Origin: Chitinophaga pinensis
GTDB lineage: Bacteria; Bacteroidota; Bacteroidia; Chitinophagales; Chitinophagaceae
Reading direction: 5' to 3'
Assembly: GCA_945872815.1 (NCBI GenBank)
Contig: CAMCAY010000020.1
Coordinates: 1-34,807, forward strand
DNA: 34,807 nucleotides
Shown in pieces: positions 11,991-30,600 of this stretch; position 1 is the first letter of the stretch; each line of letters starts with the position of its first letter. Both the position numbers and the translations under genes were made by a program. The notes beneath the pieces are model-generated. The model saw nothing but the letters and a program-made list of their open reading frames with translations, did no database searches and was not told the DNA's origin.

Positions 11991-12040
11991 AAAGATTTCT
12001 AAAGAACAATCATTCGAAAAAATAAATAATTGAATTTAAG

Positions 12041-13234
12041 ATGAAAAAAAACAAAGTAATAATTCTGATTGCAGCAATGTTTGTCCTTTCTTGTAAAAAT
12101 ACTCAAAAGGAGGGCAATCAAATTTTGAATGAAAAAAAATCAGCTCTCGAAAAGTTGATGAGTCAAAAAAATAAACTAGAAGATGACATTAGAAAATTGC
12201 AGGAAGACATCAATAAGCTTGATTCTAACCACTCTGCCAATGCCAATGCTAAATTGGTTGCGGTTTCTGCAGTAGCTATTCAAAAATTTGATCATTATAT
12301 AGACCTGCGCGGAAAAATTGACGCTGAAAATATCTCTTATATTACTCCAAGGGGGATGGGAGGCCAAGTGAAATCTATTTTCGTACATGAAGGCGATGTA
12401 GTGAAAAAAGGTCAATTGTTATTGAAATTAGACGATGCAATCGTTCGGCAATCTTTGGCTGCTGCCAAGCAACAATTGGAAGCAATTAAAACACAATTAA
12501 GTTTTGCAAGAAATATCTACGACCGTCAAAATGCCCTATGGCAAAAAGGAGTGGGCACAGAAGTTCAATTGATAAGCGCAAAAACCAATGTAGAAACATT
12601 GCAAAGTCAACTTAAATCTGTTGAAGAACAAGTGAAAATAACAGCAGAACAATTGAATACAACCAATGTATACAGTGATGTTGATGGAGTAGCCGAAACG
12701 GTAATGGTTAAGGTAGGAGAATTATTTGGTGGTATGGGACAAATAAAAATTGTAAATACAAGTCAATTAAAGGCAACTGCAAATGTGCCTGAAAACTATA
12801 TTACAAAAGTTCACAAAGGAACACCTGTTGTTATTGTGGTAACAGAAATTGGCAAAGTCATTCATTCCAATATATCATTGATTGGACAAACCATTGAGAA
12901 TACGCAAAGAGGTTTTGTATCAGAGGCAAAAATTCCAACACAACCCCTTTTAAAACCCAATCAATCTGTATTGATGAAAATACTTGACTATAGTGCATCA
13001 AAGGCTGTAGTGATTCCGGTAAATACTGTTCAAAGCGATGAGAAACAGAAATATGTGTATGTTATGGAGAAAAAAAGCAACGGCATTCAGATTGCTACAA
13101 GAAAACCAATTATTCTTGGAGAAGTTTACGGTGACTTAGTTGAAATAAAGTCAGGTTTAAATGGCGGTGAACAGTTGATTACAGCGGGTTATCAAAATTT
13201 ATACGAAGGTCAGGTGGTTAAAACAAATGAATAA
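12041..13234 (+). CDS. RND efflux periplasmic adaptor, lipoprotein
   Basis: 397 residues. Lipobox VLSC gives lipid-anchored Cys18. A Lys/Glu-rich coiled coil (about 27-62) follows, longer than in typical AcrA-like adaptors. The barrel-sandwich (lipoyl) half-motif GGQVKSIFVHEGDVVKKGQLL is at about 107-127, followed by the helical hairpin (about 135-205, with KGVGTEVQLISAKTNVETLQ) and the second lipoyl half (SDVDGVAETVMVKVGELF). The beta-barrel and membrane-proximal parts close the protein with GEVYGDLVEIKSGLNGGEQL. It bridges the inner-membrane pump and TolC channel. Gaps of 50 and 38 bases to its neighbours indicate one transcript. Confidence 0.92.
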   Translation: MKKNKVIILIAAMFVLSCKNTQKEGNQILNEKKSALEKLMSQKNKLEDDIRKLQEDINKLDSNHSANANAKLVAVSAVAIQKFDHYIDLRGKIDAENISYITPRGMGGQVKSIFVHEGDVVKKGQLLLKLDDAIVRQSLAAAKQQLEAIKTQLSFARNIYDRQNALWQKGVGTEVQLISAKTNVETLQSQLKSVEEQVKITAEQLNTTNVYSDVDGVAETVMVKVGELFGGMGQIKIVNTSQLKATANVPENYITKVHKGTPVVIVVTEIGKVIHSNISLIGQTIENTQRGFVSEAKIPTQPLLKPNQSVLMKILDYSASKAVVIPVNTVQSDEKQKYVYVMEKKSNGIQIATRKPIILGEVYGDLVEIKSGLNGGEQLITAGYQNLYEGQVVKTNE

Positions 13235-13272
13235 GCCAATCATATTCTTATAATAATATTAAAAGAAAACGC

Positions 13273-16200
13273 ATGAATTTTGTTGAAGGAGTAAAAGAAA
13301 AAATAAAGGAATTCAAACTTACCAGTTGGGCAATTGACAACAGAACTGCCATTTATATTATTTCAATGTTGATCAGTTTATTTGGCTTGTATAAATTCAA
13401 TACAATGCCAAAGGAACAGTTTCCGGATATTGTGGTTCCAACTATCAGCATTACAACTGTATATGCAGGAAATTCTCCAAAGGATATAGAGAATCTTGTA
13501 ACAAGGCCTATCGAAAAACAATTGAAAGGTATCAGTGGCGCCAAAGTAAAGAAAATTACGAGCACATCTCAAACAGATTACAGTTTGATAATTGTAGAGT
13601 TTGACACAGATGTTAAAACAGAATTAGCCAAGCAGAAAGTTAAAGATGCGATTGACAAAGCTCAGAGTGATTTGCCCAACAACTTAACTTCTACACCTAA
13701 TGTACAGGAATTTGCTTTCAGTGAAATGCCTATTATGTTTGTGAATGTGAGTGGTGATTATGATGGAGTTAAGTTGAAACAGTTTGCTGATAAGTTGCAA
13801 GACAAATTTGAAGAACTTCCTGAAATAACAAGAGCAGAAATAGTAGGCGCACCTGAAAGAGAGATACAGGTAAATGTTGACCCCTATAAAATGCAGGCTG
13901 CAAGAATCAGTTTCATGGACATTGAAAATGCAATTTCTCGCGAAAACAATGACATAACAGGCGGATTGATTGAAGTGGGCGACATGAAGAGAACGCTGAA
14001 AGTAAAAGGCCAGTTCAATAGTGCATTAGACCTTCAAAACATATTGGTAAAAAGCAGCGCGCAAGGTGCAACCGTTTATTTAAAAGACATTGCTGAACTA
14101 AAAGATACCATCAAAGAAAAAGACAGTTATGCAAGGCTCGATGGAAAAAATGTAGTGACGATTAATATCATAAAGCGCGCAGGAGAAAACTTAATAACAG
14201 CAGCAGGAAAAATAAAAAGTATTGTAGAGAAGATGAAGGAGTCAGAAGAACTGCCTCCAAGTTTGAAAGTGGTCATTACCGGAGACCAAAGTAAAGCAAC
14301 AGCCACTTCGTTCAATGATTTAGTAAACACAATTATCATTGGATTTGTTTTGGTATTAATTATTCTGATGTTTTTCATGGGAGTTACCAATGCATTTTTT
14401 GTTGCATTAAGTGTGCCGCTAAGTGTATTTGTGGCATTTATGTTTTTGCCTATTGCTGATTCCATTGTAGGCACTTCAGTTACCTTGAATTTCATAGTGT
14501 TGTTTGCGTTGTTGTTTGGATTAGGAATTATTGTGGATGATGCTATTGTGGTAATTGAAAACACGCACAGAATTTACAGTAATGGAAAAGTCCCCATTAT
14601 AAAAAGTGCTAAAGAAGCCGCAGGTGAAGTGTTTATTCCTGTTTTAGCCGGAACAGCCACAACACTTGCTCCATTTTTTCCGCTGCTTTTTTGGAAAGGT
14701 ATCATTGGTAAATTTATGATCTACTTGCCAACGATGCTTATATTGACGTTGGCCGCTTCACTAATTGTTGCTTTTATTTTCAATCCAGTTTTTGCTGTCA
14801 GCTTTATGAAACCTGAGGGCAAAGAACATGAAGAACCCAAAAATCTATTGTTCAAAAAATGGTGGTTTTGGACTGCTATAGTATTTTCTCTATTATTCCA
14901 TTTATCAGGGTCACATGGTTTTGCCAATTTTCTATTGTTTATGATGTTGTTGGCTGTATTGAACAGGTATGTATTCAGAGACATCATTCATACTTTCCAA
15001 ACAAAACTATTGCCGGCTTTAATGAACAGCTATGAAAATTTATTGAAATGGATATTAAAAGGAAATAGGCCTGTATGGTCGGTGGTATCTTTGTTTTTGC
15101 TTTTTCCATTGTCAATTGTATTGCTGATGGCAAGAGGCAACAAGGCAACCTTTTTCCCTAGCGGCGATCCCAAGTTTATTTATGTTTATTTAAAAATGCC
15201 ACCCGGAACGAGTGTTAAATCAACGGATAGTGTCACTCATCTATTGGAACAAAGGGTTTTTAAAGTATTGGAAAAAGAGAGACCCGGTGAGGAAGGAAGC
15301 ATTGTTGAAAGTGTTATTGCCAATGTAGCCAATAGTGCAAATAACCCCCGGGATAACAATAGAAGTATTCAGTCAAACCTAGGAAGAATACAAGTTTCAT
15401 TTGTTGAATTTGAAAAAAGAGATGGCAAAAAAACAAGGCCTTATCTTGATGAAATCAGGTCAAAGATGACGGGTATTCCAGGAGCAAGCATCGAAGTAAC
15501 ACAAGAAGACGCAGGCCCTCCAACTGATCCACCGGTTAATATAGAAATAGCGGGAGATAAATTTGAGGAAATTGCCAAAATAGCAACGCAGTTAAATCAA
15601 TATTTAGATACCAATAAAGTTGAGGGAGTTGAAAATTTAAAGTTAGATGTAGATCTTAATAGTCCGGAAATCACTATTAAGGTTGACAGAGAAAAAGCCA
15701 TGTCTGAAGGGTTAAGTACTGGTCAAATTGGTATGGAAATAAGAACAGCTGTTTTTGGCAAGGAAGTAAGTAAAATAAAAGACGGGGAAGATGAATACAA
15801 AATCCAATTAAGATACAATGACTTGGTAAGAAACAACATTACAGATTTGATGAATCTTCGCATAACTTTCATGGATATGAATACCATGCGAATAAAATCC
15901 ATTCCTATCAGTTCTGTCGCAACCATTGATTATACAAACACTTCGGGAGCAATTCTTCGAAAGAATGTTAAGAGAACCATTCAATTGCAGTCAAATGTTT
16001 TGGATCCATCCATGACGGGAAAAGTAAACAAAGAGCTGGCTGTAAAAATTGAAAAATTCAAATCAATGGTAACGATTCCGGGAGATGTTACAATAAAACA
16101 AACCGGACAGGGAGAGCAAGAAGCAGAAACCAATAGCTTTTTAGGTATGGCATTGAGTATTGCGTTGGGGTTGATTTTTTTAATACTTGTTTTGCAATTC

Positions 16201-16821
16201 AATTCGCTTAGTAAACCATTTATTGTATTGACTGAAATTTTCTTCTCCATCATTGGTGTGTTTTTAGGATATGCCATTACAGGAATGACCATAGCAAGTA
16301 TCATGTTGGGTGTAGGGATCATTGGGCTTGCAGGAATTGTTATAAAAAATGGAATTTTATTAATAGAATTTACAGACGAATTGAGGGGAAGGGGAATGAA
16401 AACAAGAGAGGCTGCCATCACAGCAGGAAAAATAAGAATCATACCGGTATTATTGACAGCAGTGGCAACAATTATGGGATTATTGCCATTAGCGGTTGGA
16501 TTCAATATTGATTTTGTTTCTTTCTTTCAGCATTTTAATCCTCATATTTTCTTTGGAGGTGATAGTGTAGTATTCTGGGGTCCATTAAGCTGGACAATTA
16601 TTTTCGGGTTAATCTTTGCGTTCTTCCTCACTTTAATCATGGTACCAAGCATGTACATTATTTCTGAAAGATTAAGAAGGCCAATGGAAAGATTTTACGG
16701 TACTAAATACGTGGCGTTATTTGGATTTACAGGACCTTTTTTCTTTTTATTTGTATTGATTATGTATGCAGGAAAAAAAATACAGGGAAAGAAAGTTTGG
16801 AATGGTAAATTGAAAAATTAA
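13273..16821 (+). CDS. RND multidrug-type inner-membrane transporter (AcrB/HAE1-like)
   Basis: 1182 residues, longer than AcrB (about 1050). It has the RND layout: TM1, a large porter loop (MPKEQFPDIVVPTISITTVYAG at the start), TM2-6, a second loop, TM8-12. The proton-relay Asp pair is in GIIVDDAIVVIEN (D422, D423), and the TM10 Lys is in GIVIKNGILLIEF. Extra length is explained by a hydrophobic insertion after TM6 (KNLLFKKWWFWTAIVFSLLF and the following segment) and by an expanded loop before the last helix (FQHFNPHIFFGGDSVVFWGP), both seen in bacteroidete pumps. Driven by the proton gradient, it exports a hydrophobic or amphiphilic substrate that cannot be named from sequence. Confidence 0.93.
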   Translation: MNFVEGVKEKIKEFKLTSWAIDNRTAIYIISMLISLFGLYKFNTMPKEQFPDIVVPTISITTVYAGNSPKDIENLVTRPIEKQLKGISGAKVKKITSTSQTDYSLIIVEFDTDVKTELAKQKVKDAIDKAQSDLPNNLTSTPNVQEFAFSEMPIMFVNVSGDYDGVKLKQFADKLQDKFEELPEITRAEIVGAPEREIQVNVDPYKMQAARISFMDIENAISRENNDITGGLIEVGDMKRTLKVKGQFNSALDLQNILVKSSAQGATVYLKDIAELKDTIKEKDSYARLDGKNVVTINIIKRAGENLITAAGKIKSIVEKMKESEELPPSLKVVITGDQSKATATSFNDLVNTIIIGFVLVLIILMFFMGVTNAFFVALSVPLSVFVAFMFLPIADSIVGTSVTLNFIVLFALLFGLGIIVDDAIVVIENTHRIYSNGKVPIIKSAKEAAGEVFIPVLAGTATTLAPFFPLLFWKGIIGKFMIYLPTMLILTLAASLIVAFIFNPVFAVSFMKPEGKEHEEPKNLLFKKWWFWTAIVFSLLFHLSGSHGFANFLLFMMLLAVLNRYVFRDIIHTFQTKLLPALMNSYENLLKWILKGNRPVWSVVSLFLLFPLSIVLLMARGNKATFFPSGDPKFIYVYLKMPPGTSVKSTDSVTHLLEQRVFKVLEKERPGEEGSIVESVIANVANSANNPRDNNRSIQSNLGRIQVSFVEFEKRDGKKTRPYLDEIRSKMTGIPGASIEVTQEDAGPPTDPPVNIEIAGDKFEEIAKIATQLNQYLDTNKVEGVENLKLDVDLNSPEITIKVDREKAMSEGLSTGQIGMEIRTAVFGKEVSKIKDGEDEYKIQLRYNDLVRNNITDLMNLRITFMDMNTMRIKSIPISSVATIDYTNTSGAILRKNVKRTIQLQSNVLDPSMTGKVNKELAVKIEKFKSMVTIPGDVTIKQTGQGEQEAETNSFLGMALSIALGLIFLILVLQFNSLSKPFIVLTEIFFSIIGVFLGYAITGMTIASIMLGVGIIGLAGIVIKNGILLIEFTDELRGRGMKTREAAITAGKIRIIPVLLTAVATIMGLLPLAVGFNIDFVSFFQHFNPHIFFGGDSVVFWGPLSWTIIFGLIFAFFLTLIMVPSMYIISERLRRPMERFYGTKYVALFGFTGPFFFLFVLIMYAGKKIQGKKVWNGKLKN

Positions 16822-16861
16822 TTTAACGATTATTCTTAAGCAATAATACATTTTGATATCA

Positions 16862-17665
16862 ATGGATTTTTTTAATATCAACAAACAATCATGGAATAAC
16901 AAAGCAGACATCCATATAAAGTCTGCTTTCTATGATGTGGAAGGTTTTTTAAATGGTAAAAGCTCGCTCAATGATATTGAACTGAATTTATTGGGAGACA
17001 TCAACGGTAAAAGTATTTTACATCTTCAATGTCATTTCGGTCAGGATACGCTTTCATTAGCAAGAATGGGCGCCGATGTAACCGGCATAGATTTATCAGA
17101 CCGTTCTATTCAATTGGCTAATGAATTGGCAGAAAAAACAAAGCTAAAAGCAGATTTCATTTGTTGCAACATCTATGATTTACCTCAGCATCTTAATAAA
17201 CAATATGACATAGTATTTACATCTTATGGTACAATCGGTTGGTTACCTGATATAAATAAATGGGCTGAGTTAATTGCAAGCTATTTAAAACCCGGAGGCG
17301 AATTTATATTTGTTGAGTTTCATTCTGTTGTATGGATGTTTGATGATGAGTTTGATAAAATTGGTTACAATTACTTTAATACAGGCCCAATCATTGAAAC
17401 GTATAACGGTACGTATGCTGAAAAATCAGCTGAATTATCTCAAGAGTATGTGATGTGGAATCATGGATTAGGAGAGGTGATCAATAACATTGTCAGCAAT
17501 CAAATGCAAATTGTTTCGATGGAAGAATTCAATTACTCACCTTATGATTGCTTTAGGCATACAATTGAAGTTTCCCCGGGAAAATTCAGAATCAATAAAT
17601 TGGAAGATAAAATTCCGATGGTTTATTCGATAAAAGCAAGAAAGGAAATTTTGAATGTGACTTAA
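16862..17665 (+). CDS. Class I SAM-dependent methyltransferase
   Basis: 267 residues from the ATG at 16862. A TTG three codons upstream is in frame but less likely. The Rossmann-fold SAM site is seen in ILHLQCHFGQDTLSLARMG (motif I), the acidic VTGIDLSDRSI (motif II), and DFICCNIYDLP, then DIVFTSYGTIGWLPD (motif IV). The C-terminus carries FVEFHSVVWMFDDEFD and YDCFRHTIEVSPGKF, a beta-extension common in this subgroup. The substrate is unknown. It lies 40 bases after the pump gene and may be the last gene of the efflux operon, or a separate gene. Its stop codon is separated from the convergent crtYcd stop by one base. Confidence 0.85.
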   Translation: MDFFNINKQSWNNKADIHIKSAFYDVEGFLNGKSSLNDIELNLLGDINGKSILHLQCHFGQDTLSLARMGADVTGIDLSDRSIQLANELAEKTKLKADFICCNIYDLPQHLNKQYDIVFTSYGTIGWLPDINKWAELIASYLKPGGEFIFVEFHSVVWMFDDEFDKIGYNYFNTGPIIETYNGTYAEKSAELSQEYVMWNHGLGEVINNIVSNQMQIVSMEEFNYSPYDCFRHTIEVSPGKFRINKLEDKIPMVYSIKARKEILNVT

Positions 17666-17666
17666 T

Positions 17667-18347
17667 TTATTTTTTTATCCTTTCATACCCTGCAACATTC
17701 ATCATAATTAGCAACATCCCATAAAATATGTCTTCAAAAGGAATGCTGTATATTCTAACATTAAGATTCTCCACATTGTTGTATAATACCACAGGAATGG
17801 AAGTTAGCAAGCCATTGACAATTAAAAAAGGAATTAGCATCACTGCATAGGATATCAGAAATGCATTTACATTGAACGTGCTGAAATATTTTTTCGCACT
17901 GTTGATTATGAAAATAAAAGTTCCGGTAAAAAAGAAGGTAAAAAAAGTATATTCCTTTTCATGATTGTATATTGACGACATCAGGAGGATGATCGCAATG
18001 ATTTTAAAAAACCATAACCCAACAGAAGTATTAATTATTTTTGGAAAATAAACCCTGACACATTCATAAATAAAAACACAACAGTAGGGTACAACAAAAA
18101 AGAACAGCACTTCTTCAATAGGCAAATTGACGATATTGATTCCTGTGATATAATTTTCATTGAAACTCCATACACCATTTTTGGTAAAAATGATATCCCA
18201 TACGATATAAAAAAGTGCGGGTAATAACATTGATTTGAAGAGTGGTTTCCATTTTTTATAAAATGCCACTTTCTTATCAAAGCTCAATAATAACGGACCT
18301 GCTAAGGAACCGATCAGGATGAGGAAATAGGTGTAATGTGGATTCAC
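17667..18347 (-). CDS. crtYcd: Lycopene beta-cyclase, fused CrtYc-CrtYd type
   Basis: 226 residues, six or more membrane segments. Two tandem copies of the heterodimeric cyclase domain are present. The first contains WDIIFTKNGVWSFN then NLPIEEVLFFFVVPY (PxEE at about 76-79); the second contains the matching YSIPFEDIFYG (PFED at 203-206). The acidic P-x-E-(E/D) motifs are the recognised active-site signature of this non-flavin cyclase family. It closes the end of lycopene or a derivative to a beta-ionone ring in the cytoplasmic membrane. It is the last gene of the crt run, 28 bases after crtZ. With CruF and CrtD acting on the other end, a one-ring carotenoid is expected. Confidence 0.88.
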   Translation of the reverse strand: MNPHYTYFLILIGSLAGPLLLSFDKKVAFYKKWKPLFKSMLLPALFYIVWDIIFTKNGVWSFNENYITGINIVNLPIEEVLFFFVVPYCCVFIYECVRVYFPKIINTSVGLWFFKIIAIILLMSSIYNHEKEYTFFTFFFTGTFIFIINSAKKYFSTFNVNAFLISYAVMLIPFLIVNGLLTSIPVVLYNNVENLNVRIYSIPFEDIFYGMLLIMMNVAGYERIKK

Positions 18348-18375
18348 AACTGAAAGAATTTAATAGTTGAAAAAA

Positions 18376-18861
18376 TTAATCAGTCATTTGAGATTTTATT
18401 TTTTGATCTCTTTTCACTTTGTCCCAGTATTTTTTTGCAACAATCAACATTCCAAAGCTTTCGCCCTTTTCTTTTCCTAAATGTTTGTGATGCATTTTAT
18501 GAGCCCATCTGATTGTTTTAATATAGGTATTATTGCTTCTGCTAAACCATTTAAATCGTTGATGAATGATTACTTCATGAACAATAAAATAGCCAAATCC
18601 ATAAAGGGCTATACCAAAACCTATGGCTGCCATCCAGTAAACTTTGTCTTGCAAGCCAAACATGATGCACAACCAACTGGGAATCGCAAATATGAGAAAG
18701 AAAGCATCATTTTTTTCAAAAAAACCGGGCGTTGGCTGATGATGATCTTCATGTAAATACCATAGAAAACCATGCATAACATATTTGTGTGTCAGCCATG
18801 TGATGCCTTCCATAATAAAAAAAGTTAGCAAAACAATTGAGATAAAAATGATTGTATTCAT
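18376..18861 (-). CDS. crtZ: Beta-carotene hydroxylase
   Basis: 161 residues, the usual size. All four histidine boxes of the di-iron fatty-acid-hydroxylase/CrtZ family are present: HKYVMH (25-30, HX4H), HEDHH (37-41, HX2HH), HEVIIH (95-100, HX4H) and HKMHH (121-125, HX2HH), with four hydrophobic helices between. It adds a 3-hydroxyl to the beta-ring made by CrtYcd. It overlaps the end of the cruF gene by four bases and is followed by crtYcd. Confidence 0.93.
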   Translation of the reverse strand: MNTIIFISIVLLTFFIMEGITWLTHKYVMHGFLWYLHEDHHQPTPGFFEKNDAFFLIFAIPSWLCIMFGLQDKVYWMAAIGFGIALYGFGYFIVHEVIIHQRFKWFSRSNNTYIKTIRWAHKMHHKHLGKEKGESFGMLIVAKKYWDKVKRDQKIKSQMTD

Positions 18862-19565
18862 AAAAATGTTCTAAGTATCAGGAAAAACATGGTTTGTATC
18901 ATTAGTAAATTTACTGCGAATTTATTGTCTTTATTAATATTCATCCGTTGAAAGATCCAAAGAAATCCTGCGCTGATAATAAACCAGCAAACATAATTAT
19001 ACAAGGGAATGCTTCCATTCTCATTCCATTTCCAGTAACCTAAACGAATAGCAACAGGTTCCATCAACCAATCAAAAATCAAGGCCATAGTAGCAGCATC
19101 CACTATCAGCGAGAGTTTTTTTATGGATGAATTTATAGGTGTATCAGCAATTCTTTTTAAAAGAGCATTCATGAAAAATTGAATAGCAGTACCGCAACTA
19201 AATATCACAATAAACCAATTTGCACCTATTATGATAGGTACATTTTCAATAGTCGGACCTAATACGTTTCCATAAGAATAACTACCAAAAAGGTAACCGG
19301 TTTTAGTGCCAATGATTTCCAAAACAATTCCAAAGAAAAAAGTAAATACAAAGAATAATAAAAAAGATCGGTTGATTTTTGTTTGAGTGTAGAAAATAAA
19401 AACCAACATCAAGAGTAAGTTTATTGCAGATGTTTTAATGAATAGACCTCTATCAAAAAATAATATCCCTATCAATCCTATTGTATGAAAAACAACAGCA
19501 ATCAATGTTGCTAATTGAGTTTTGTTCAAGTTCATAAAAATAATATGGTCTTTATTATTTTTCAT
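18858..19565 (-). CDS. cruF: Carotenoid 1,2-hydratase, CruF-like
   Basis: 235 residues (a second ATG at 19535 gives MNLNKTQLATL, an equally good start). Multi-spanning membrane protein of the CruF/DUF422 family, with the conserved GIVLEIIGTKTGYLFGSYSYG segment and a Trp-rich region (DWLMEPVAIRLGYWKW). Known members hydrate the terminal psi end of carotenoids at C1,2. In Bacteroidota they act with CrtD on one end while CrtYcd cyclises the other. It overlaps crtD by 11 bases (if started at 19565) and crtZ by 4 bases, so translation is probably coupled. Other family members act on different carotenoids, so the regiochemistry is inferred from neighbours. Confidence 0.8.
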   Translation of the reverse strand: MKNNKDHIIFMNLNKTQLATLIAVVFHTIGLIGILFFDRGLFIKTSAINLLLMLVFIFYTQTKINRSFLLFFVFTFFFGIVLEIIGTKTGYLFGSYSYGNVLGPTIENVPIIIGANWFIVIFSCGTAIQFFMNALLKRIADTPINSSIKKLSLIVDAATMALIFDWLMEPVAIRLGYWKWNENGSIPLYNYVCWFIISAGFLWIFQRMNINKDNKFAVNLLMIQTMFFLILRTFL

Positions 19566-21033
19566 TTTTAATAATAAGTTCGCTAGTTATATAAGCACTT
19601 TTAAGACAAAGCGGAATGCCTCCTCCCGGATGAACAGTACCGCCACAAAAGTAAAGTCCTTTTATGTTGGATGCAAAGTTAGCAGGACGAAGAAATGCTG
19701 AAAATGGAGAATTAGAACTTGTTCCATACAAAGATCCTTTATAAGAGCCTGTTTTTTTCTCAATACTTCTTGGATCCAAAATGGTTTCTGTTTTTATTAA
19801 TTGCTCTATATCTATATTTAATATCCTGTTTATTTTTTGAATCACATTTTTCCTAGTTTCTTTAATCAACGCATCCCAATCTTGTCCATTATTCGTAGGC
19901 GCATTGATCATCACAAACCAATTTTCACTTCCAGTTGGAGCTTGTTCTTTTTCCATCTTTGATGTGATGTTAATATAAATAGTAGGGTCGTTAAGAATTG
20001 TTTTTTTGTTGAACAAGCAGTCAAATTCTTCTTTATAATGGTTGCTGAATAAAATATTATGCAAACCTAATTCATCAAACTGTTTATTGATTCCCCAATA
20101 AAATATCAATGCACTGCTGCTTCTTTCCTGTTTAGCTAGCTTTGTTGCTTTAGGTAAATGATTCAAAAGGTTTTTATAAGTATGGTAAACATCCGCATTG
20201 CTAATAATTAAATCAGAAAAAACATGTTCACCATTCACAACTACACCCTTCACTTTTTTATCTTCCTGAATAATTTTTTCAACAGATTGATTAAAATTGA
20301 ATTGTACTCCTTTCTTTATGGCAAGTTTATATAAAGCATTCGTGATACTGATCATTCCACCTTTTGGGTAAAAAGTCCCCTGGTTGTGTTCAAGGTGTGG
20401 AATCAAACTAAGCATTCCCGGTGCTTTGTAAGGGTTACTTCCATTATAAGTAGCGAATCGATTGAATATTTGAACAGCTTCATTGCTTATAAACCTCTTA
20501 TTGTTGTGATGATGGAGTGTGTTGAATAAGTAAGTTGTTTTTAATACCGACAATGCATGTAAAACTCTTTTATGTAACCAGGTGGATAGTTTATGCAATG
20601 AATGGTTTAAAAAAATCAGTCCAATCTTATTGTATAATCTCTCCGCATCAGATAAATATTTTTCTACGGCAGAAGAATCTTCATTTAATTTATCAGCCAA
20701 TTCTGCTGATAATCTTTTCTTGTCTGTGTATGCGGCTATTTTTTTTCCGTTTTCAAAAAAATAATTACAAGCAACATCAGTTTTGGAGTAGTTAAAATAT
20801 TTTTCAATAGGCTCATTTGCAAATGCAAACAATTCTTCAATATTCTGAGGTTGTGTAAATAAAGAAGGGCCCTCATCAAATTTAAATCCCTCTTTTTCAA
20901 AGTAACTTAATTTACCTCCGGGAGATTCGTTACTTTCAAAAACACTTATCTGATATCCGGCGCTGGCAAGTCTGATGGCTGTTGCCATGCCTGCTATTCC
21001 ACTGCCGATAATGATTGCATGTTTAGTTGACAT
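19555..21033 (-). CDS. crtD: CrtD-like hydroxycarotenoid 3,4-desaturase
   Basis: 492 residues from the ATG at 21033 (MSTKHAII). An upstream in-frame ATG would lengthen the overlap with idi. The FAD-binding motif is IIIGSGIAGMATAIRLA with VFESNESPGGKLSYFE, and the C-terminal flavin motif is YFCGGTVHPGGGIPLCLKSA. The HPGGGIPL form is typical of CrtD-type enzymes rather than CrtI (which here has VPGPGVPPSLISGE). It should introduce the 3,4 double bond next to the hydroxylated psi end produced by CruF. Overlap is 11 bases with idi upstream and 11 with cruF downstream. It could instead be another amine-oxidase-fold carotenoid desaturase or isomerase. Confidence 0.85.
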   Translation of the reverse strand: MSTKHAIIIGSGIAGMATAIRLASAGYQISVFESNESPGGKLSYFEKEGFKFDEGPSLFTQPQNIEELFAFANEPIEKYFNYSKTDVACNYFFENGKKIAAYTDKKRLSAELADKLNEDSSAVEKYLSDAERLYNKIGLIFLNHSLHKLSTWLHKRVLHALSVLKTTYLFNTLHHHNNKRFISNEAVQIFNRFATYNGSNPYKAPGMLSLIPHLEHNQGTFYPKGGMISITNALYKLAIKKGVQFNFNQSVEKIIQEDKKVKGVVVNGEHVFSDLIISNADVYHTYKNLLNHLPKATKLAKQERSSSALIFYWGINKQFDELGLHNILFSNHYKEEFDCLFNKKTILNDPTIYINITSKMEKEQAPTGSENWFVMINAPTNNGQDWDALIKETRKNVIQKINRILNIDIEQLIKTETILDPRSIEKKTGSYKGSLYGTSSNSPFSAFLRPANFASNIKGLYFCGGTVHPGGGIPLCLKSAYITSELIIKNEK

Positions 21034-21571
21034 CTTGTTGTTGAATTCCAATACTATTTGTTTTTTGAAAAGCTGCTATTTTAGGAAAAGCAATCGAAAA
21101 CCAGGAAGTGTATTTGTGTTGATGTTGAATCAAGCTTTCTTCTATAGCATCCATTTTCATGAAGCAGTAATCTTTTACCTCCGCATGATCCGGTTTTATT
21201 ACTCCATCATATACACCTGCAAACACATGATCAAACTCGTATTCGGTAAGCCCATTCTCAAAAACGGTTTTGTAAATAAAGCTAAAAGCAAATTGAAGAT
21301 CAGTATCAAACCCCATTTCTTCACGGAGTCTTCGGTTTGCGTTATCTGATACAGATTCGTTTGGTAATGGATGACTGCAACAAGCGTTAGACCAAAGGCC
21401 TCCGCTATGGTATTTTGAATTAGCTCTTTGCTGCAAAAGCATTTCCCCTTTTTTATTAAATATAAAAACACTGACAGCTCTATGAAGAAGTCCTTTATTA
21501 TGAGCCTCCATTTTTTCCATGAATCCTACCTCTCTGTCATGTTCATCTACTAATATCACTTCTATATTCAT
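21023..21571 (-). CDS. idi: Isopentenyl-diphosphate isomerase, type 1
   Basis: 182 residues, full length for a Nudix-type IDI. Catalytic signatures are visible: NACCSHP (62-68, with Cys65 and His67 in the position of the E. coli CGHP motif), the Nudix-like RRLREEMGF (80-88), and YEFDHVF (111-117, Glu112). Metal-binding His residues lie near the N-terminus (EAHNKGLLHRA). It converts IPP to DMAPP, feeding prenyl-chain synthesis. A 10-base gap to crtB and an 11-base overlap with crtD place it firmly in the carotenoid operon. The operon thus boosts precursor supply, while a geranylgeranyl diphosphate synthase must be encoded elsewhere. Confidence 0.93.
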   Translation of the reverse strand: MNIEVILVDEHDREVGFMEKMEAHNKGLLHRAVSVFIFNKKGEMLLQQRANSKYHSGGLWSNACCSHPLPNESVSDNANRRLREEMGFDTDLQFAFSFIYKTVFENGLTEYEFDHVFAGVYDGVIKPDHAEVKDYCFMKMDAIEESLIQHQHKYTSWFSIAFPKIAAFQKTNSIGIQQQDVN

Positions 21572-21581
21572 TCAAAAATAA

Positions 21582-22421
21582 TTAAGCTAAAATGTTGAAT
21601 TGGTTTCTAAGTTTGGCTTTAAATAAAATTAAAGCTTTGTAATAATCCGGTATTCTGATTCTTTCAGTAAGCAGTTTGTCCGGCTGTGCCGATTTCATTT
21701 TATTAAACAAACAGAGATAATATTTATAAGCTACATACACCCCAAACTGTGCTTTTTGTGGAAGCATCAATATTCCTTTAAATGCTTTTTGAAAATCTAT
21801 TTCAATTTCCTCCTCAATATTTTGTTTCATGGCGGTAGTGAAATTATTGAAATCAATTCCGGGGAAATAAATTCTTTTCAGATTCTCGGAATCAGCTTTT
21901 ATATCCCGAAGAAAATTTACTTTTTGAAAAGCAGCGCCCAAAGCTTGTGCAAAAGGTTTTAATTTTTCATACACAGTTTTATCTCCATTGCAAAACACAT
22001 GTAGACACATTAACCCTACTGCTTCTGCACTTCCGTAAATATATTCCTGGTATTCTTTTTCATTGTATGAAATCTTTGATAGGTCTGCTTTCATGCTAGC
22101 AAAGAATGCATCAATCAATTCTTTTTCAATATTAAATTGATTAACAACCTGCTGAAAACTATGTAATATGGGATTCAAACTGATTTGATTGTGGATAGCA
22201 GAGAAAGTTTCTTTAATGAAATTTTCCAGTAGAAGTTGTTTGTCAAATTCATGGAAGCTGTCAACAATCTCATCTGCAAGTCTCACAAATCCGTAAATAT
22301 TATAAATAGGCTGATGCAGATCTTTGTGCAATAACTGTATTGCGCTGCTGAAAGAAGTACTGTATCTTTCTGTAGTTATTTTGCTGCATTCGCTGCTTAC
22401 ATCATGATATAGTTGGATCAT
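21582..22421 (-). CDS. crtB: Phytoene synthase
   Basis: 279 residues. Both Mg-diphosphate motifs of the squalene/phytoene synthase family are present: the first is FVRLADEIVDSFH (D50, E51, D54), the second NFLRDIKAD (R172, D173, D177). YIYGSAEAVGLM lies between them, as in other bacterial CrtB proteins. It condenses two geranylgeranyl diphosphates into phytoene at the membrane surface. It overlaps crtI by 4 bases (ATGA) and is followed after 10 bases by idi. Confidence 0.94.
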   Translation of the reverse strand: MIQLYHDVSSECSKITTERYSTSFSSAIQLLHKDLHQPIYNIYGFVRLADEIVDSFHEFDKQLLLENFIKETFSAIHNQISLNPILHSFQQVVNQFNIEKELIDAFFASMKADLSKISYNEKEYQEYIYGSAEAVGLMCLHVFCNGDKTVYEKLKPFAQALGAAFQKVNFLRDIKADSENLKRIYFPGIDFNNFTTAMKQNIEEEIEIDFQKAFKGILMLPQKAQFGVYVAYKYYLCLFNKMKSAQPDKLLTERIRIPDYYKALILFKAKLRNQFNILA

Positions 22422-23908
22422 TTTATTGTATTGTGGTATTTTAAAATTTCTTTCGCAACAACTTCTCCGCTGATTAAAGAAGGCGGAACACCAGGCCCTG
22501 GAACAGTGAGTTGACCGGTATAATACAAGTTGTTTACTTTTTTACTTTTTAGGGAAGGTTTTAATATCGATGTCTGCATCAATGTGTTTGCTAATCCGTA
22601 TGCGTTGCCTTTAAAAGCATTATAGTCTTCTTTAAAATCTTTTACAGCGTATGATTTTTTAAAGATGATGGAATCGGTAATTTTTTCTCCAATTCTTGAT
22701 TCATAACGAGCAATGATTTTATCAAAATAATTATTCCTCAATACTTCATCATCTCCGCTTAATCCCGCAGCAATCGGCACTAAAAAAAATAAATTTTCGC
22801 AACCTGTAGGTGCGACAGAATTATCTGTTACAGAAGGAGCACTTACATAAAATAAAGGGTTGGAGGGCCATTGAGGATTTGTGTAAATTTCAGTCCCATG
22901 CAAATCAAAGTCTACATCAAAAAACAAAGAATGGTGTGTGATGTTTTTCAGTTTTTTATTAAGTCCAACATAATAAATCAAACAAGATGGAGCCATCACA
23001 CGTTTATCCCAATAATCAGAACTGTAAGATTGATATTTGGTATCAAGAAGAGAAGTTTCAATAAAATGATAATCTGCACCACCAATTACAATGTCTGCTT
23101 CAAATTCAACATTTCTGCCATTTACTTCAGCAATAACTTTTTTTGCTTGATGATTGGTTACTTCAATTTTATTTACATCACAGTTAAAATGAAATGTGAT
23201 TCCCACTTCTTTGGCTAAATGATACATCGCATCTGCTATATTATACATTCCTCCGTCCGGATACCAGGTACCTAACTTAATATCAGCATAATTCATCAAA
23301 CTGTACAGCGCAGGGATATCTGAGGGAAGCGCACCGAGAAACAACACCGGAAATTCCATCAGTTGAATCAGTTTAGGATGTTTGAAATACTTGCGAACGT
23401 GCTTTTTCATGGATGCAAAAACATCCAGTTTTAATAAGCCTTTAGCCAAATCAATATCCAAAAATTCAGTAAGACTTCTTCCAGGTTTATGAACAAGTTT
23501 GTTAACACCTACGTCATATTTATATGCCGCTTCTTTTAAAAACTGATCCAGTTTGGTAGAACTACCTGTTTCAATTTCATCAAATAGTTTTTTTAATTGA
23601 GTATAATCAGCAGCAACGTCAATATGATTATCGGGATAATAAACTCTATAAGATGGATCTAATCTGATCAGATTATAATAATCAGAAACTTTTTTCCCAA
23701 AGCAGTTAAAATATCTTTCAAATACATCCGGCATCCAGTACCAACTTGGCCCCATGTCAAAAGTAAATCCTTCCTCGGAGAATTTCCTTCCTCTTCCTCC
23801 CGGCATTGAATGCTTTTCAAGAATGGTTACATTCCATCCGGATTTACCCAAAAAAGAAGCAGCAGACATACCTGCGAACCCACTACCTATTACAATGGCT
23901 TTTTTCAC
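22418..23908 (-). CDS. crtI: Phytoene desaturase
   Basis: 496 residues. The N-terminal FAD site is IVIGSGFAGMSAASFLGKSG with LEKHSMPGGRGRKFSEEGF and DMGPSWYWMPDVFERYF, a strong CrtI pattern. The C-terminal flavin motif is YYTGQLTVPGPGVPPSLISG, the bacterial phytoene desaturase signature. It converts phytoene stepwise to lycopene. First enzyme gene of the operon, 42 bases after the sigma factor gene, with translation probably coupled to crtB by the ATGA overlap. Confidence 0.95.
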   Translation of the reverse strand: MKKAIVIGSGFAGMSAASFLGKSGWNVTILEKHSMPGGRGRKFSEEGFTFDMGPSWYWMPDVFERYFNCFGKKVSDYYNLIRLDPSYRVYYPDNHIDVAADYTQLKKLFDEIETGSSTKLDQFLKEAAYKYDVGVNKLVHKPGRSLTEFLDIDLAKGLLKLDVFASMKKHVRKYFKHPKLIQLMEFPVLFLGALPSDIPALYSLMNYADIKLGTWYPDGGMYNIADAMYHLAKEVGITFHFNCDVNKIEVTNHQAKKVIAEVNGRNVEFEADIVIGGADYHFIETSLLDTKYQSYSSDYWDKRVMAPSCLIYYVGLNKKLKNITHHSLFFDVDFDLHGTEIYTNPQWPSNPLFYVSAPSVTDNSVAPTGCENLFFLVPIAAGLSGDDEVLRNNYFDKIIARYESRIGEKITDSIIFKKSYAVKDFKEDYNAFKGNAYGLANTLMQTSILKPSLKSKKVNNLYYTGQLTVPGPGVPPSLISGEVVAKEILKYHNTIK

Positions 23909-23950
23909 ACGTGTAAGGTATTAAAAAATAAATGATTAGAAATGATATTA

Positions 23951-24448
23951 TTAACGCGAAATGGCTGATTTTAATAATTTTCTGGCAAAATGTATCCTAC
24001 TTTTCACTGTACCTAAGGGTTCATGTAGATATTCGGCTATTTCATTGTATTTGTAACCTTCAAAATATAAAAGAAAAGGGTATTTGAAGATATCCGGAAG
24101 ATCATGAATTGCTTTGTTGATTTCTTTGTGTTTAATTCCTGATTCGGCAAGATTTGAAACCGCTCCCTGATTGTGATCTAACAGAAAATCATTGGGTGTT
24201 CCGTCAAATACTACATTTTGTCGGCTTTTTTTTCTGTAATCATTGATGAAAATATTACGCATGATGGTGTACATCCAAGCTTTGATATTGGTACCTACAT
24301 GGTATTTTTCTTTGTTGGCCAAAGCTCTGTAAAGGGTTTCCTGAGTAAGGTCTTTAGCAGTCTCATTGTCTTTTGTAAGCGTAAAAGCAAAGGGTTTTAA
24401 AAAATCAACGTTGGAGATTAATATATTTTCGAATTCTTTACTAGACAT
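23951..24448 (-). CDS. ECF-type RNA polymerase sigma factor
   Basis: 165 residues. Region 2 is visible as AKDLTQETLYRALANKEKY (core-binding) followed by IKAWMYTIMRNIFINDYRKKSR, and region 4 as YKYNEIAEYLHEPLGTVKSRIHFARKLLK, a clear sigma-type HTH. There is no region 1.1 or 3 and no anti-sigma gene beside it. It is co-directional with crtI (42-base gap), so it is probably transcribed with the carotenoid genes and may autoregulate them. A perfect -7 box (TAAGTTTG) of the housekeeping type precedes it, so the first transcription need not depend on the ECF factor itself. Confidence 0.9.
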   Translation of the reverse strand: MSSKEFENILISNVDFLKPFAFTLTKDNETAKDLTQETLYRALANKEKYHVGTNIKAWMYTIMRNIFINDYRKKSRQNVVFDGTPNDFLLDHNQGAVSNLAESGIKHKEINKAIHDLPDIFKYPFLLYFEGYKYNEIAEYLHEPLGTVKSRIHFARKLLKSAISR

Positions 24449-24468
24449 TTTGTTTAATTTTTATAAAG

Positions 24469-24520
24469 CAAACTTAAACAGAAATCGCCTCCTAAAAAAA
24501 GAATTTGTTTAATTATTCTT
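24469..24520 (-). promoter_or_regulatory. Promoter and dyad of the sigma/crt operon
   Basis: On the minus strand TAAGTTTG (24469-24476) matches TAnnTTTG, with a run of seven T about 17 bases upstream in the -33 position. Further upstream, AAGAAT (24499-24504) and ATTCTT (24515-24520) form a six-base inverted repeat 10 bases apart that could be bound by the adjacent MerR-type regulator. The dyad is short and unproven. Confidence 0.45.
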
Positions 24521-24530
24521 ATAAAAAGCT

Positions 24531-25409
24531 CTACAAATTATATATAAAGCTCATAACATCTTGAATGTTTCTTTTAAAAATGATGGGAGAGTGTATTTTT
24601 TTCTCATAGTTCTGAGCCAGCAGACCCGATATAATACAAGGAGTTTCACTTAAGTTTTTGGAAATAAAACCCATGAATTTGTCAAAATTGAAATTGGATG
24701 CAGGTCTGGTAATATGGCAATACAAATAATCGGGTTTTTTAACTTTCACGACGTAGGCAACATCTGCAAGTGGAACATTGCATCCGAGATAAATAGCATC
24801 AACGCCTTTCTTTTTAAGAAGGTAATACATAAAAAGCAATCCCAATTCATGATATTCAGATTCAGGAAGAAATAACAAAACTGTTTTGTTTATGCTGATG
24901 CTACTGTCAGTTCCTTCAATACCTACTATTAATTTTTGCCTTATGATGTTGGTAACCAGATGTTCTTGAGCAGGATTAATATGATTGGTAAGCCACAATA
25001 CACCAATTTTCTCCATGTACTTGAAAATAACTTGTGTAATGGTTTTTTCAATTCCATGTTCCCCAATATAACTGGTAAGAGTCTTTTCAAAAGCTCGTGA
25101 GTTAAGTTCCACCATGTGTTGAATCAACTCATTTACTATTCTTTCCTGCTTTGCATCCTGGTAATTCAGTTTCAGGATATTTTCATTGATATCCTCTTCA
25201 CTCATTTTGTCAATATGGGAAATTTTGAAACCATATTTATTTAGCAGAGAGATATTTAGAATTATCTTAAGTTCTTCATTTGTGTAATACCTGATATTGG
25301 TTTCGGTTCTGTGCGGTTTCAAAAAATGGTATCGTTGTTCCCATATTCTGAGTGTATGGGCTTTGATGCCAGACAGATTTTCAAGATCCTTGATGGTAAA
25401 TGAGTTCAT
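24531..25409 (-). CDS. CarH/LitR-like MerR regulator with B12-binding domain
   Basis: 292 residues from the ATG at 25409 (MNSFTIKDLENLSG). An in-frame extension upstream lacks family character. The N-terminal MerR helix-turn-helix is TIKDLENLSGIKAHTLRIWEQRY, with the wing residues HRTETNIRYYTNEEL. The C-terminal half follows the cobalamin-photoreceptor layout: a four-helix part with WLTNHINPAQEH, an exact W-x9-E-H motif (W139, E149, H150), and a Rossmann part with ESEYHELG, the E-x-H-x-x-G cobalt-ligand motif (H187). In CarH, adenosylcobalamin holds a tetramer on DNA in the dark, and light breaks it. The residue after the Trp is Leu, whereas T. thermophilus CarH has the photoadduct His there. 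Next to crt genes, it probably represses them in the dark. Confidence 0.85.
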   Translation of the reverse strand: MNSFTIKDLENLSGIKAHTLRIWEQRYHFLKPHRTETNIRYYTNEELKIILNISLLNKYGFKISHIDKMSEEDINENILKLNYQDAKQERIVNELIQHMVELNSRAFEKTLTSYIGEHGIEKTITQVIFKYMEKIGVLWLTNHINPAQEHLVTNIIRQKLIVGIEGTDSSISINKTVLLFLPESEYHELGLLFMYYLLKKKGVDAIYLGCNVPLADVAYVVKVKKPDYLYCHITRPASNFNFDKFMGFISKNLSETPCIISGLLAQNYEKKIHSPIIFKRNIQDVMSFIYNL

Positions 25410-25431
25410 AAGTTGTAAATGAAACAATATT

Positions 25432-25452
25432 ACAATTTCGAAGGGAAATTGT
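25432..25452 (-). promoter_or_regulatory. Dyad in the regulator's promoter region
   Basis: ACAATTTC (25432-25439) and GAAATTGT (25445-25452) are perfect eight-base arms separated by five bases, starting 22 bases before the regulator's ATG. On the minus strand TAATATTG, one mismatch from TAnnTTTG, overlaps its downstream edge. Position suggests autoregulation by the MerR/CarH-like protein. Confidence 0.45.
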
Positions 25453-25675
25453 TTGATTGTCAAAAAAATAACCAATATTATTCAAGGTTAAATACACGAT
25501 CAGTATTTCGTCAGTTAAGTATTGAAAAAGCCCAATCATTTTATTAATTAACTTTGGATGATAAATGAATTAGCATTTAATGCCTAGAAGACAAACCATC
25601 ATTTCAAAAGCGGATGTCAGGATAATTATCGGTATTAGTGCTTAGCATATAATCTAAAACAAATTAAGTATAATT

Positions 25676-27615: not shown

Positions 27616-30600
27616 ATGAAACAATTCTTCTTTCCGAGAAAATTTTTAATGTTTTTTTTGGGTTTATTAATTAGTTTTTGCGTTAAGGCTCAAACACCTC
27701 GTTACAATTTTTATGTGACAAATGAAGTACAGATTTCCCCTCGTATATATCAGTTTGATATTTATTTATTAAGAACTGGAGCAAATCCATTGGAAGTTGC
27801 ATCTTATCAGTTTGCTTTAAGTTTCGATACTACAATTGCCGTCGGAGGCTCTATTACTGCAAGTTATGTGAGCGGCTCTTCTGAAATGGTAGCCGGGCAA
27901 GTGCCAACATCTCTCACCACCATCAACGCATTATACAAATATCCAAATGCTCCCGGTGATACTACTTATTACAAATTTATGAGTCAGGCAGCAAGATCTC
28001 CTGTAGGACCGGGAAATGGGACCATTATCAGTGCCGTTAAAAACGGATGTTCATCACCGGGCACAAAAATTGGAACTTACAGATTAACTAGTACTGTTGA
28101 TTTCAGGATAAATTCTCGTTGCAGACATATTTTTAATCCTTCGAATAATGGTGCTAGTGGAAGGGTAACTACAACCGTTACTTCTTACGTAAATGGATCA
28201 AGCACCACCGCTATTTTGGATACACTTAGCAATTTTAATACCCCCAACACCTGTTCTCAAAATATAGCTTTAAACACATGTAACGTTACTGCTGCTGTTA
28301 CAACCGCCCCATCATTGTGTTTTGGCACCAATAACGGTTCAGCAAGTATTACATTAAGTGGCTTTGGATCTTCATCAACAGGAACGTATTCATTGGATGG
28401 TGGTTCAAATGTAAACTATACCTCTAATCCTTTCACCATTAACAATTTATCTGCGGGTCTACACAGTGTTTCAATTGTTTCTGGTTCAGGAGCGAATTCC
28501 TGCTCGGTTTCCTCAGGAAACTTTACAATTAGCGGGCCAACATCTGCATTAAGTTCTTCATATAATGCAGCGGGTTGTGTTAGTTATAAAATTCAGTGGG
28601 CGCCTGGTATTGATACCACAGTAACAACTTCTGGTTCATATACTCGTCGATTGACTTCAGTAAATTCATGTGATAGTTTTGTAACTGCCAATATTACCAT
28701 TAATCCTACAGCACCAGTTGCCGGAACATTAAGTGGTAACCAGGATATTTGCTCAAATAACAGTGTCACTTCATTTTCATCAACATCATCGGATGGGGTA
28801 TGGTCATCAAGTAATACAGCTGTGGCAACGGTAAATTCAAGCAATGGATTAATTACACCTGTTGGAGGTGGTACCGCAACTATTACATACGCAGTAACAG
28901 GAACCGGTGGTTGTATTGATTCAGTTGCCCGCGCAACGCGTGATATTACTATTACTGTTGCTCCTAATACTGGTACATTAAGCGGTTCTCAGGCAATTTG
29001 TTCTAATGCTACTAGTATTTCTTATTCATCTACAGTTACCGGAGGTATATGGACATCGTCTAATACATCAATTGCGACTATTGACTCATTAACAGGAGCT
29101 GTTACGCCAATTTCTCAAGGTGTTGATACAATGACATATTTTGTTGCAGGAACTGGTGTATGTTTGAATGCTTCAGCAATAAGAGTATTGACGGTTACAG
29201 CACAACCAAGTGCAGGAACCTTAAGTGGAATACAGGAAATTTGTTCAAATAGTTCGACTACACTGTCTTCAACAGTAAGTGGAGGGGCATGGACATCTAA
29301 TAACACATCTATAGCAACAATAAATTCACTTTCAGGTATTGTTGCACCTGTATCATCTGGTATCGATACAATGACATACACAGTTACAGGAACAGGCGGA
29401 TGTGCCAACGAAGTAGCAACCAGAATCGTTACTATAACTGCAGCGCCTTTAGCTGGAACACTTAACGGAACACAGTCAGTATGTTTAGGCTCCGCCGGAG
29501 CATTTACTTCTACTAATTCAGGAGGATATTGGATTGCATCAAATCCCTCCATTGCAACTATTGACTCAATAACAGGAGTAATTGCAACTCTTACTGCAGG
29601 CGTGGATACTATGACTTACTCAATTGCAGGCACGGGCGTTTGTTCTAGTACAATTGCTACAGCAACTCGCATACTTACTGTTACTGCTCCACCAACAACA
29701 GGAACATTGAGTGGTTCGCAAGCAATTTGCTTGAATGGAACAGCAACATTTTCGTCTTCCGTAAGTGGTGGTTCTTGGACTTCATCTAACCCTGCAATTG
29801 CAACAATCAATAGTTCTACCGGTATCATTTCTCCGGTATCAGTTGGCATAGACACAATGACTTATACAGTTACAGGAACAGGAGGTTGTTCAAATGTCTT
29901 TGCTACAAGAATAGTTACTATTACTGCACCTGTTTCTGCAGGAACTATTACGGGTAACAATACCACTTGCTCAAATGCTACAACAACCTACTCTTCTAAT
30001 ATTCCAGGTGGATACTGGACTTCAAGTAATACAACAATAGCTTCAATAGATTCACTTTCTGGATTCATTACACCAGTAAACAATGCTTCTGGACAAGTAA
30101 CCATTACCTACACCGTTTTAGGATCTGGTGGTTGTGCTAATGCAACTGCTACAAAAGTAGATACTATCAAAGCTGCTCCTAATACTGGAACACTTAGTGC
30201 TACACAAACAGGCATTTGTGTAGGTGGTTCAGCAACAATTTCAACAGATGGAGTTGGGGGTGGAACATGGTCTCACACAGCGGCAGGAGCTATATCAACT
30301 TTTAACACAGGAACTCGTGTAGTTTCAGGTGTTGGTGCAGGTGTTGATACGATAAAATATTCAGCAACTGCAAACGGTTGTACTTCTGTTTCTAAAATCA
30401 ACATTACGATAACTGCAGCTCCTGTTGCGGGAACAATTAACGGGACCACTTCAATTTGTTCTAATGCAAACTCCACTTACACCATTTCAGGTGCTAGTTC
30501 TACCGGTTTGTGGTCTGTTACAAATCCAAGAGCTACAATTGATTCCTTAACAGGAATTTTAACGCCAGTATCTTCTGGAAATGACACGGTTAGATATATT

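Follow-up and report, generated by a model that had tools for sequence, protein, structure and literature searches.

The 34,807-nucleotide contig CAMCAY010000020.1 of Chitinophaga pinensis (assembly GCA_945872815.1) carries on its minus strand, between positions 17667 and 25409, a gene for a CarH-like regulator of the MerR family (merR), a gene for an extracytoplasmic function (ECF) sigma factor (ecf) and a set of carotenoid (crt) genes, in the order merR, ecf, crtI, crtB, idi, crtD, cruF, crtZ and crtYcd. The stretch analysed, referred to below as the window, is the entire contig (C20) of a 2.42-Mb genome that is 99.85% complete. All nine frames are open; a B12-type MerR gene, an ECF sigma gene and crt genes lie next to one another, in the order already given by an earlier interpretation made from the letters alone (the sequence-only reading). 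The genes are as follows.

24531–25409, minus strand: merR, CarH-like MerR regulator of 292 aa with a B12-binding-type C-terminal domain (Pfam MerR_1 and B12-binding_2, PF02607)
23951–24448, minus strand: ecf, ECF sigma factor of 165 aa, the proposed relay (Sigma70_r2 and r4_2)
22418–23908, minus strand: crtI, phytoene desaturase, start GTG (NF058655, 732 bits against a cut-off of 640; TIGR02734 above cut-off)
21582–22421, minus strand: crtB, phytoene synthase (PF00494; the sole SQS_PSY match in the genome)
21023–21571, minus strand: idi, isopentenyl diphosphate isomerase (NF002995 and TIGR02150 above cut-off)
19555–21033, minus strand: crtD, 1-hydroxycarotenoid 3,4-desaturase, in an open reading frame reaching TTG at 21051 (NF042421, 622 bits against a cut-off of 500)
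18858–19565, minus strand: cruF-type carotenoid 1,2-hydratase, alternative ATG at 19535 (PF04240, Caroten_synth, 93.8 bits against a cut-off of 25)
18376–18861, minus strand: crtZ, beta-ring hydroxylase with histidine-rich motifs (similarity to Pantoea plasmid genes; histidine positions)
17667–18347, minus strand: crtYcd, fused lycopene cyclase, start GTG (Lycopene_cyc, PF18916, and TIGR03462)

Gaps of 42, 10 and 28 bases separate ecf from crtI, crtB from idi and crtZ from crtYcd, respectively, and 4-base overlaps join crtI to crtB and cruF to crtZ. The idi and crtD genes overlap by 11 bases if crtD starts at ATG 21033 (by 29 from the TTG), and crtD and cruF either overlap by 11 bases (ATG 19565) or are 19 bases apart (ATG 19535). 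Overlaps of 4–11 bases and gaps of 10–42 bases, as proposed from the sequence alone, therefore describe the crt genes; the merR–ecf gap, which contains the predicted operator described below, is 82 bases and falls outside that range.

Two sets of related loci were compared with the window. The close set comprises the best 80 of 372 loci and was chosen by the regulator, so that the constancy of merR within it is by construction; its records are titled mostly Chitinophagaceae, Ferruginibacter, Flavihumibacter and unplaced Bacteroidetes/Bacteroidota, and one (L010) bears the title Streptomyces griseus, apparently through mislabelling. The phylum set consists of 60 regions from Bacteroidota genomes, out of 65 listed non-own matches with E values up to 1.9e-34 (five were omitted for reasons unrelated to their sequence). 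In 17 of these loci ecf follows merR (ECF class), and in 26 crtI or crtB follows merR directly (direct class), where 'direct' means that no ecf match scoring more than 60 bits lies in the 1000 bases that follow merR downstream. Eight of 53 plasmid records with a regulator homologue (seven non-Bacteroidota and one from Persicobacter) served as a control. All counts refer to related sequences and not to independent events, and the Markov controls ignore kinship, though the bases surrounding the motif vary.

The locus closest to that of the window (L081) shares with it all nine genes and both outer neighbours, at 81–96% identity. Throughout the close set, ecf lies immediately downstream of merR in 75 of the 76 loci with at least 1 kb of downstream sequence, which upholds the pairing of a CarH-like regulator with an ECF sigma factor made in the sequence-only reading. 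Among the 58 close loci long enough to hold the operon, ecf was found in all, crtD together with cruF in 41, cruF without crtD in six and only crtZ after idi in eight, most crt genes being missing in three; these counts depend on the similarity thresholds of the analysis script. The merR-ecf-crt arrangement is a real, conserved unit and a variant on a known theme, which probably works like CarH/LitR-LitS. No single branch of a tree built from 61 regulators divides the ECF-linked from the direct type, and at least two changes between them are forced. Among cultured relatives, the merR-ecf layout is found in Ferruginibacter paludis, together with the full gene set, in Hydrotalea sandarakina, and in Flavihumibacter, where crtD and cruF are missing. 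In two close loci (L064 and L068) merR and ecf are present and no crtI or crtB was found downstream, L064 having only idi nearby. No description of this merR-ecf-crt unit was found in the literature searched, in which most matches were checked at title level, and neither was a publication combining CarH, Bacteroidetes, carotenoid and ECF sigma; the name 'CrtID' gave no literature match.

The intergenic regions upstream of ecf and merR contain four elements of interest.

24451–24480, minus strand: TGTTTA-N18-TAAACA, the predicted operator, which stops 2 bases short of the start codon of ecf (conservation, genome and phylum counts)
24506–24511, minus strand: third half-site TAAACA upstream of the palindrome (sequence; offset conserved in aligned loci)
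24469–24476, minus strand: TAAGTTTG, matching TAnnTTTG, inside the operator; a tentative -7 box (sequence)
25429–25454, minus strand: conserved element AAACA-N14-TTGT(AAT) upstream of merR (conservation; possible ECF-sigma promoter or second regulator site)

The palindrome was sought in 78 close loci (77 of the 80 and the window) with spacings of 13–21 allowed. TGTTTA-N18/19-TAAACA was present within 75 bases upstream of ecf in 74 of them, and spacings of 18 and 19 were the only ones seen. Within 120 bases upstream of ecf the palindrome occurs in 75 of the 78 loci, against 0.13% in the Markov control, and the remainder of the close loci contained five palindromes, plus strand, in 1.29 Mb. The right arm stops 1–9 bases from the start codon of ecf. 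Of 74 aligned loci, 47 have a third TAAACA some 31 bases further upstream (offset -33 to -30). Within the phylum set, the palindrome precedes ecf within 120 bases in 15 of the 17 ECF-class loci as an exact match and in all 17 with up to one mismatch; in the direct class it is found before crtI or crtB in 11 of 26 loci exactly and in 15 with up to one mismatch. As it persists before crt genes where no ecf intervenes, the palindrome is best read as the site of the MerR protein, that is, as its operator. Two observations weigh against this assignment: 11 of the 26 direct-class loci have no palindrome even at one mismatch, and three direct-class loci that do have it (L158, L166 and L173) also carry a weak ecf-like match (27–30% identity) near merR on the opposite strand. 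When these three are set aside, the direct-class counts become 8 of 23 (exact) and 12 of 23 (up to one mismatch). The half-site TAAACA agrees with TnnACA, the core of the CarH operators that have been mapped, which are described as 11-bp direct repeats (PMC9304148); the half-sites of the window are inverted, unlike those repeats.

The motif TAnnTTTG, which we take to be the Bacteroidota -7 box consensus, coincides with the left arm of the operator in only 27 of the 74 aligned loci, and 22 of the 74 have a TTTG whose first base is at -21 to -19, so that a promoter within the operator is a tentative reading. Of 81 close loci, 50 have AAACA-N13-16-TTGT upstream of merR, a pattern found at 0.9% in the Markov control, and 15 have the palindrome there; 23 have neither, which counts against the model set out below. 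In the phylum set the AAACA element precedes merR in four of 17 ECF-class and none of 26 direct-class loci. The element could be a promoter of the ECF sigma factor, a reading confounded by kinship.

Several wider roles for these motifs were considered and rejected. A wide regulon marked by the palindrome was rejected: four TGTTTA-N15-19-TAAACA sites were found in the genome, against two in the backward-read control, one of the four lying before ecf and the other three being viewed for their sequence context alone. Likewise, AAACAA-N12-15-TTGTAAT has four genomic sites (control, one) and was dismissed as a mark of other genes: one site precedes merR, two fall within reading frames, and the last is not followed by the start of any frame in the next 150 bases. 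Photolyase/cryptochrome-type genes were excluded as site carriers, since three PF03441 loci (with 1.5 kb on each side) gave no match. A second TGTTTA-N18-TAAACA palindrome was seen in AT-rich sequence at G000 C3:4381-4410 (L090), and no target gene was identified for it.

The regulator itself is predicted to have the architecture of CarH. Pfam, AlphaFold (pLDDT, the predicted local distance difference test score, of 91) and structure matching indicate a MerR DNA-binding domain followed by a B12 domain of four-helix and Rossmann parts, and the top structural matches of the model are chains of CarH from Thermus (TtCarH). CarH proteins have been defined by Wx9EH together with [D/E]xHx2[G/P]-x41-SxV/T-x22-27-GG (PMC8156234, PMC9304148; as given in the parts of these papers available to us, which applies to all literature cited here). 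The adenosyl-capping motif Wx9EH is present in the window protein (WLTNHINPAQEH at 139), as is the cobalt-ligand motif, which reads EYHELG. Among 121 close sequences the W, E and H of the cap and the cobalt histidine are invariant. In the phylum set, 45 of the 60 regulators are linked to crt or ecf, and cap and histidine are kept in 44 of these 45, compared with 10 of the 15 unlinked regulators (Fisher p 0.0028). Three of the four parts of the signature proposed for light response (GxxW, EH, GxxH and GxxxP; PMC11796333) are also present, namely GxxW, EH and GxxxP.

A number of features count against a CarH assignment. SxV/T of the B12 motif reads HIT, with H232 in place of Ser, and the closing GG reads SG, with S261 in place of the first Gly. 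GxxH of the light-response signature is SEYH, Gly being found at that place in several relatives, and the residue aligned with the light-state ligand His132 of TtCarH is Leu. There is no PF02310 match for the regulator at E 0.001, and its score of 99 bits with the NCBIfam CarH model is below the cut-off of 400. The Leu was not weighed heavily, because proteins proven to respond to light, such as CtMerR, also vary at the His132 site (PMC11796333). H232, T234, S261 and G262 are themselves invariant among the 121 close sequences, and in the alignment of the 45 linked Bacteroidota homologues Ser occupies its motif column in four and GG its columns in one. By contrast, both Ser and GG align in all seven non-Bacteroidota plasmid relatives, while the Persicobacter (Bacteroidota) plasmid homologue has neither and is without the cap. 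Searching the unaligned sequences for the classic motif as a text pattern, a weaker control, gave one of seven non-Bacteroidota against none of 45 linked proteins with the strict form and four of seven against one of 45 with the relaxed form. Since the loss of Ser and GG is common in the sampled Bacteroidota and both align in the seven relatives from other phyla, it is a trait of the sampled Bacteroidota branch that extends beyond this genome. The regulator probably works like CarH, yet does not qualify as a strict CarH under the signature that has been published: of the CarH-like identity given to it in the sequence-only reading, the fold, the cap and the cobalt histidine stand, and the signature is incomplete (HxT for SxV/T and SG for GG). 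Its adenosyl-corrinoid cofactor and its response to light and B12 are inferred. Homology to MliR of Bizionia was considered and rejected, since MliR has been discussed with DNA-binding, coiled-coil and effector-binding domains and its available descriptions have no B12-type domain; the two were set apart by description only. Five homologues that are not crt-linked (L154, L155, L157, L161 and L183) are without the cobalt histidine, and four of the five also without the Wx9EH cap; these are possible cofactor-free relatives.

One B12 riboswitch is present in the genome, and a gene for a TonB-dependent receptor comes after it. The genome also encodes a cobalamin adenosyltransferase and MetH, and CobS was not found in a search that did not cover the remaining corrinoid synthesis pathway. 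Given these findings, the host probably imports corrinoids and then adenosylates them.

We consider the following model reasonably likely as a whole. In the dark, the CarH-like MerR protein with bound adenosyl-corrinoid would act as a repressor that keeps ecf and the crt genes off, sitting on TTAAACA half-sites that span the promoter and start of ecf. Light would break the Co-C bond and the repressor would let go, upon which the primary sigma factor would transcribe ecf and read through crtI-crtB-idi-crtD-cruF-crtZ-crtYcd. The ECF sigma factor would then boost expression, perhaps via the site upstream of merR; it is best read as a relay between the regulator and the crt genes. The product would be a monocyclic C40 xanthophyll of the saproxanthin type, with a 3-hydroxy beta-ring at one end and a 1'-hydroxy-3',4'-didehydro group at the other.

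By layout, the closest tested circuit is LitR-LitS-crt of Streptomyces, in which the B12-type MerR protein LitR controls the ECF sigma factor LitS that serves the crt genes (PMC12705666). The order of command from B12-type MerR through ECF sigma to crt is the same, whereas in the window ecf directly precedes crt, the set of enzymes is another one and the B12 motif is different, as judged from an alignment that did not include LitR itself. The sequence-only reading had been reminded of Myxococcus, where a CarH-like regulator and an ECF sigma factor likewise both serve carotenogenesis. That likeness is not the closest one, as the ECF factor CarQ acts in the separate, B12-independent CarA pathway (PMC9304148), which includes the anti-sigma factor CarR (PMC8156234, PMC9304148), whereas no anti-sigma family match was found among the neighbouring proteins scanned here. 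With CarH of Thermus thermophilus the regulator shares the fold, Wx9EH, the cobalt-ligand histidine, GxxxP and a TnnACA-type half-site, but it is only 26% identical over 75% (HB8 record), in addition to its missing Ser and GG, its Leu for His132 and its inverted half-sites.

Three other accounts of the regulation have to be weighed against a CarH-like dark repressor. In the first, light would turn the MerR protein into an activator of ecf, which is unlikely in our view. Activated LitR is described as promoting the litS promoter, although the same paper also mentions B12 enhancing repressor activity (PMC12705666); CarH proteins are described as dark repressors (PMC9304148), and a site that reaches to within 1–9 bases of the start codon is in a repressor position. 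The same placement is too close for a -35 box of ecf and so bears on a second account, in which the ECF sigma factor would use the palindrome as a promoter element. Its occurrence in all ECF-class loci, with up to one mismatch, would agree with this, but its presence before crtI or crtB in loci with no intervening ecf and the match of the half-site to the CarH core do not, and we regard this account as very improbable. Finally, the regulator might function with no corrinoid at all, either with heme or another tetrapyrrole, as in AppA-type SCHIC domains, or free of cofactor like CarA, and sense redox or a partner protein; this we find a little less credible than a light-activated activator.

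The enzymes of the saproxanthin pathway, crtB, crtI, cruF, crtD, crtYcd and crtZ, are all encoded in the operon. Judged by sequence, the family calls are firm for CrtI, CrtB, Idi, CrtD and CrtYcd and good for CruF, which is under the NCBIfam CruF cut-offs despite its Pfam PF04240 match. CrtZ, with no meaningful match in Pfam or NCBIfam, was called by similarity: it matches 109 plasmid records, 95 of them from Pantoea, with up to 44% identity over 81% among the best matches listed, and of 12 listed matches ten are annotated as sterol desaturase family, one as beta-carotene hydroxylase and one not at all. These matches support the monocyclic, hydroxylated gene set of the sequence-only reading, which had also called for a search for crtE and crtW. 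For the geranylgeranyl diphosphate (GGPP) step, two long-chain prenyl synthases in the genome are above cut-off, and crtE is assumed from them. As regards crtW, the genome contains no CrtW-sized PF00487 protein, the two found being of 355 and 369 aa compared with 234 aa for CrtW of Algoriphagus. Further PF01593 proteins are encoded on contigs C9 and C48, and a CrtO-type ketolase could be among them; with a 4-ketolase, flexixanthin would be the expected product instead. The flexixanthin set of Algoriphagus has crtB, crtI, cruF, crtD, crtYcd and crtZ in common with the window, six of its eight named genes, and differs by the presence of crtW and, in certain strains, of crtG; neither MerR nor sigma occurs in the available text of that paper (PMC10784355).

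Saproxanthin is our best single prediction of the pigment. A close relative, whether myxol-like, glycosylated or a product of a bifunctional CrtI, is conceivable though doubtful. Pointing in that direction, and against saproxanthin, CrtI passes the model named bifunctional phytoene/3,4-desaturase (NF058655), an activity that would overlap with CrtD; crtD is nevertheless present in the window, and the lack of a CrtW-sized protein also argues for saproxanthin. The six close loci with cruF and crtYcd in which no crtD was found after merR (L031, L049, L056, L069, L075 and L087), together with the name of the NF058655 model, suggest that CrtI may perform 3,4-desaturation in those loci.

Beyond this genome, we tentatively suggest that Bacteroidota hold a distinct branch of CarH photoreceptors, a proposal that we consider clearly less likely than the model for the locus. 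In such a branch the cap and the cobalt histidine would be kept and the pocket for the nucleotide tail rebuilt, so that it may read incomplete or different corrinoids, with an inverted TTAAACA operator in several families and an ECF sigma gene inserted before crt in some. If this is true, the altered pocket would fit hosts that import rather than make B12, and the branch would put to the test whether CarH proteins have been defined too narrowly by their published signature. A light-induced Chryseobacterium studied in 2020 yielded no genes of a car or lit operon, and its regulator was left open (PMC7064467); the locus described here supplies a testable operator and circuit for light-controlled pigment in Bacteroidota. 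B12 light switches serve as optogenetic tools, for example LitR in Streptomyces (PMC12705666), and a branch whose lower pocket is altered and which acts through a sigma relay would enlarge this set.

The genes flanking the unit (RND efflux genes, a methyltransferase gene and DUF502) were rejected as operon members, being on the opposite strand. An RND-type efflux set (OEP, HlyD-like and AcrB-like) occupies positions 10575–16821 of the plus strand and points towards the crt operon, and the methyltransferase gene lies between the two, at 16853–17665. Beyond DUF502, positions 27616–32961 hold an open frame of 1781 aa.

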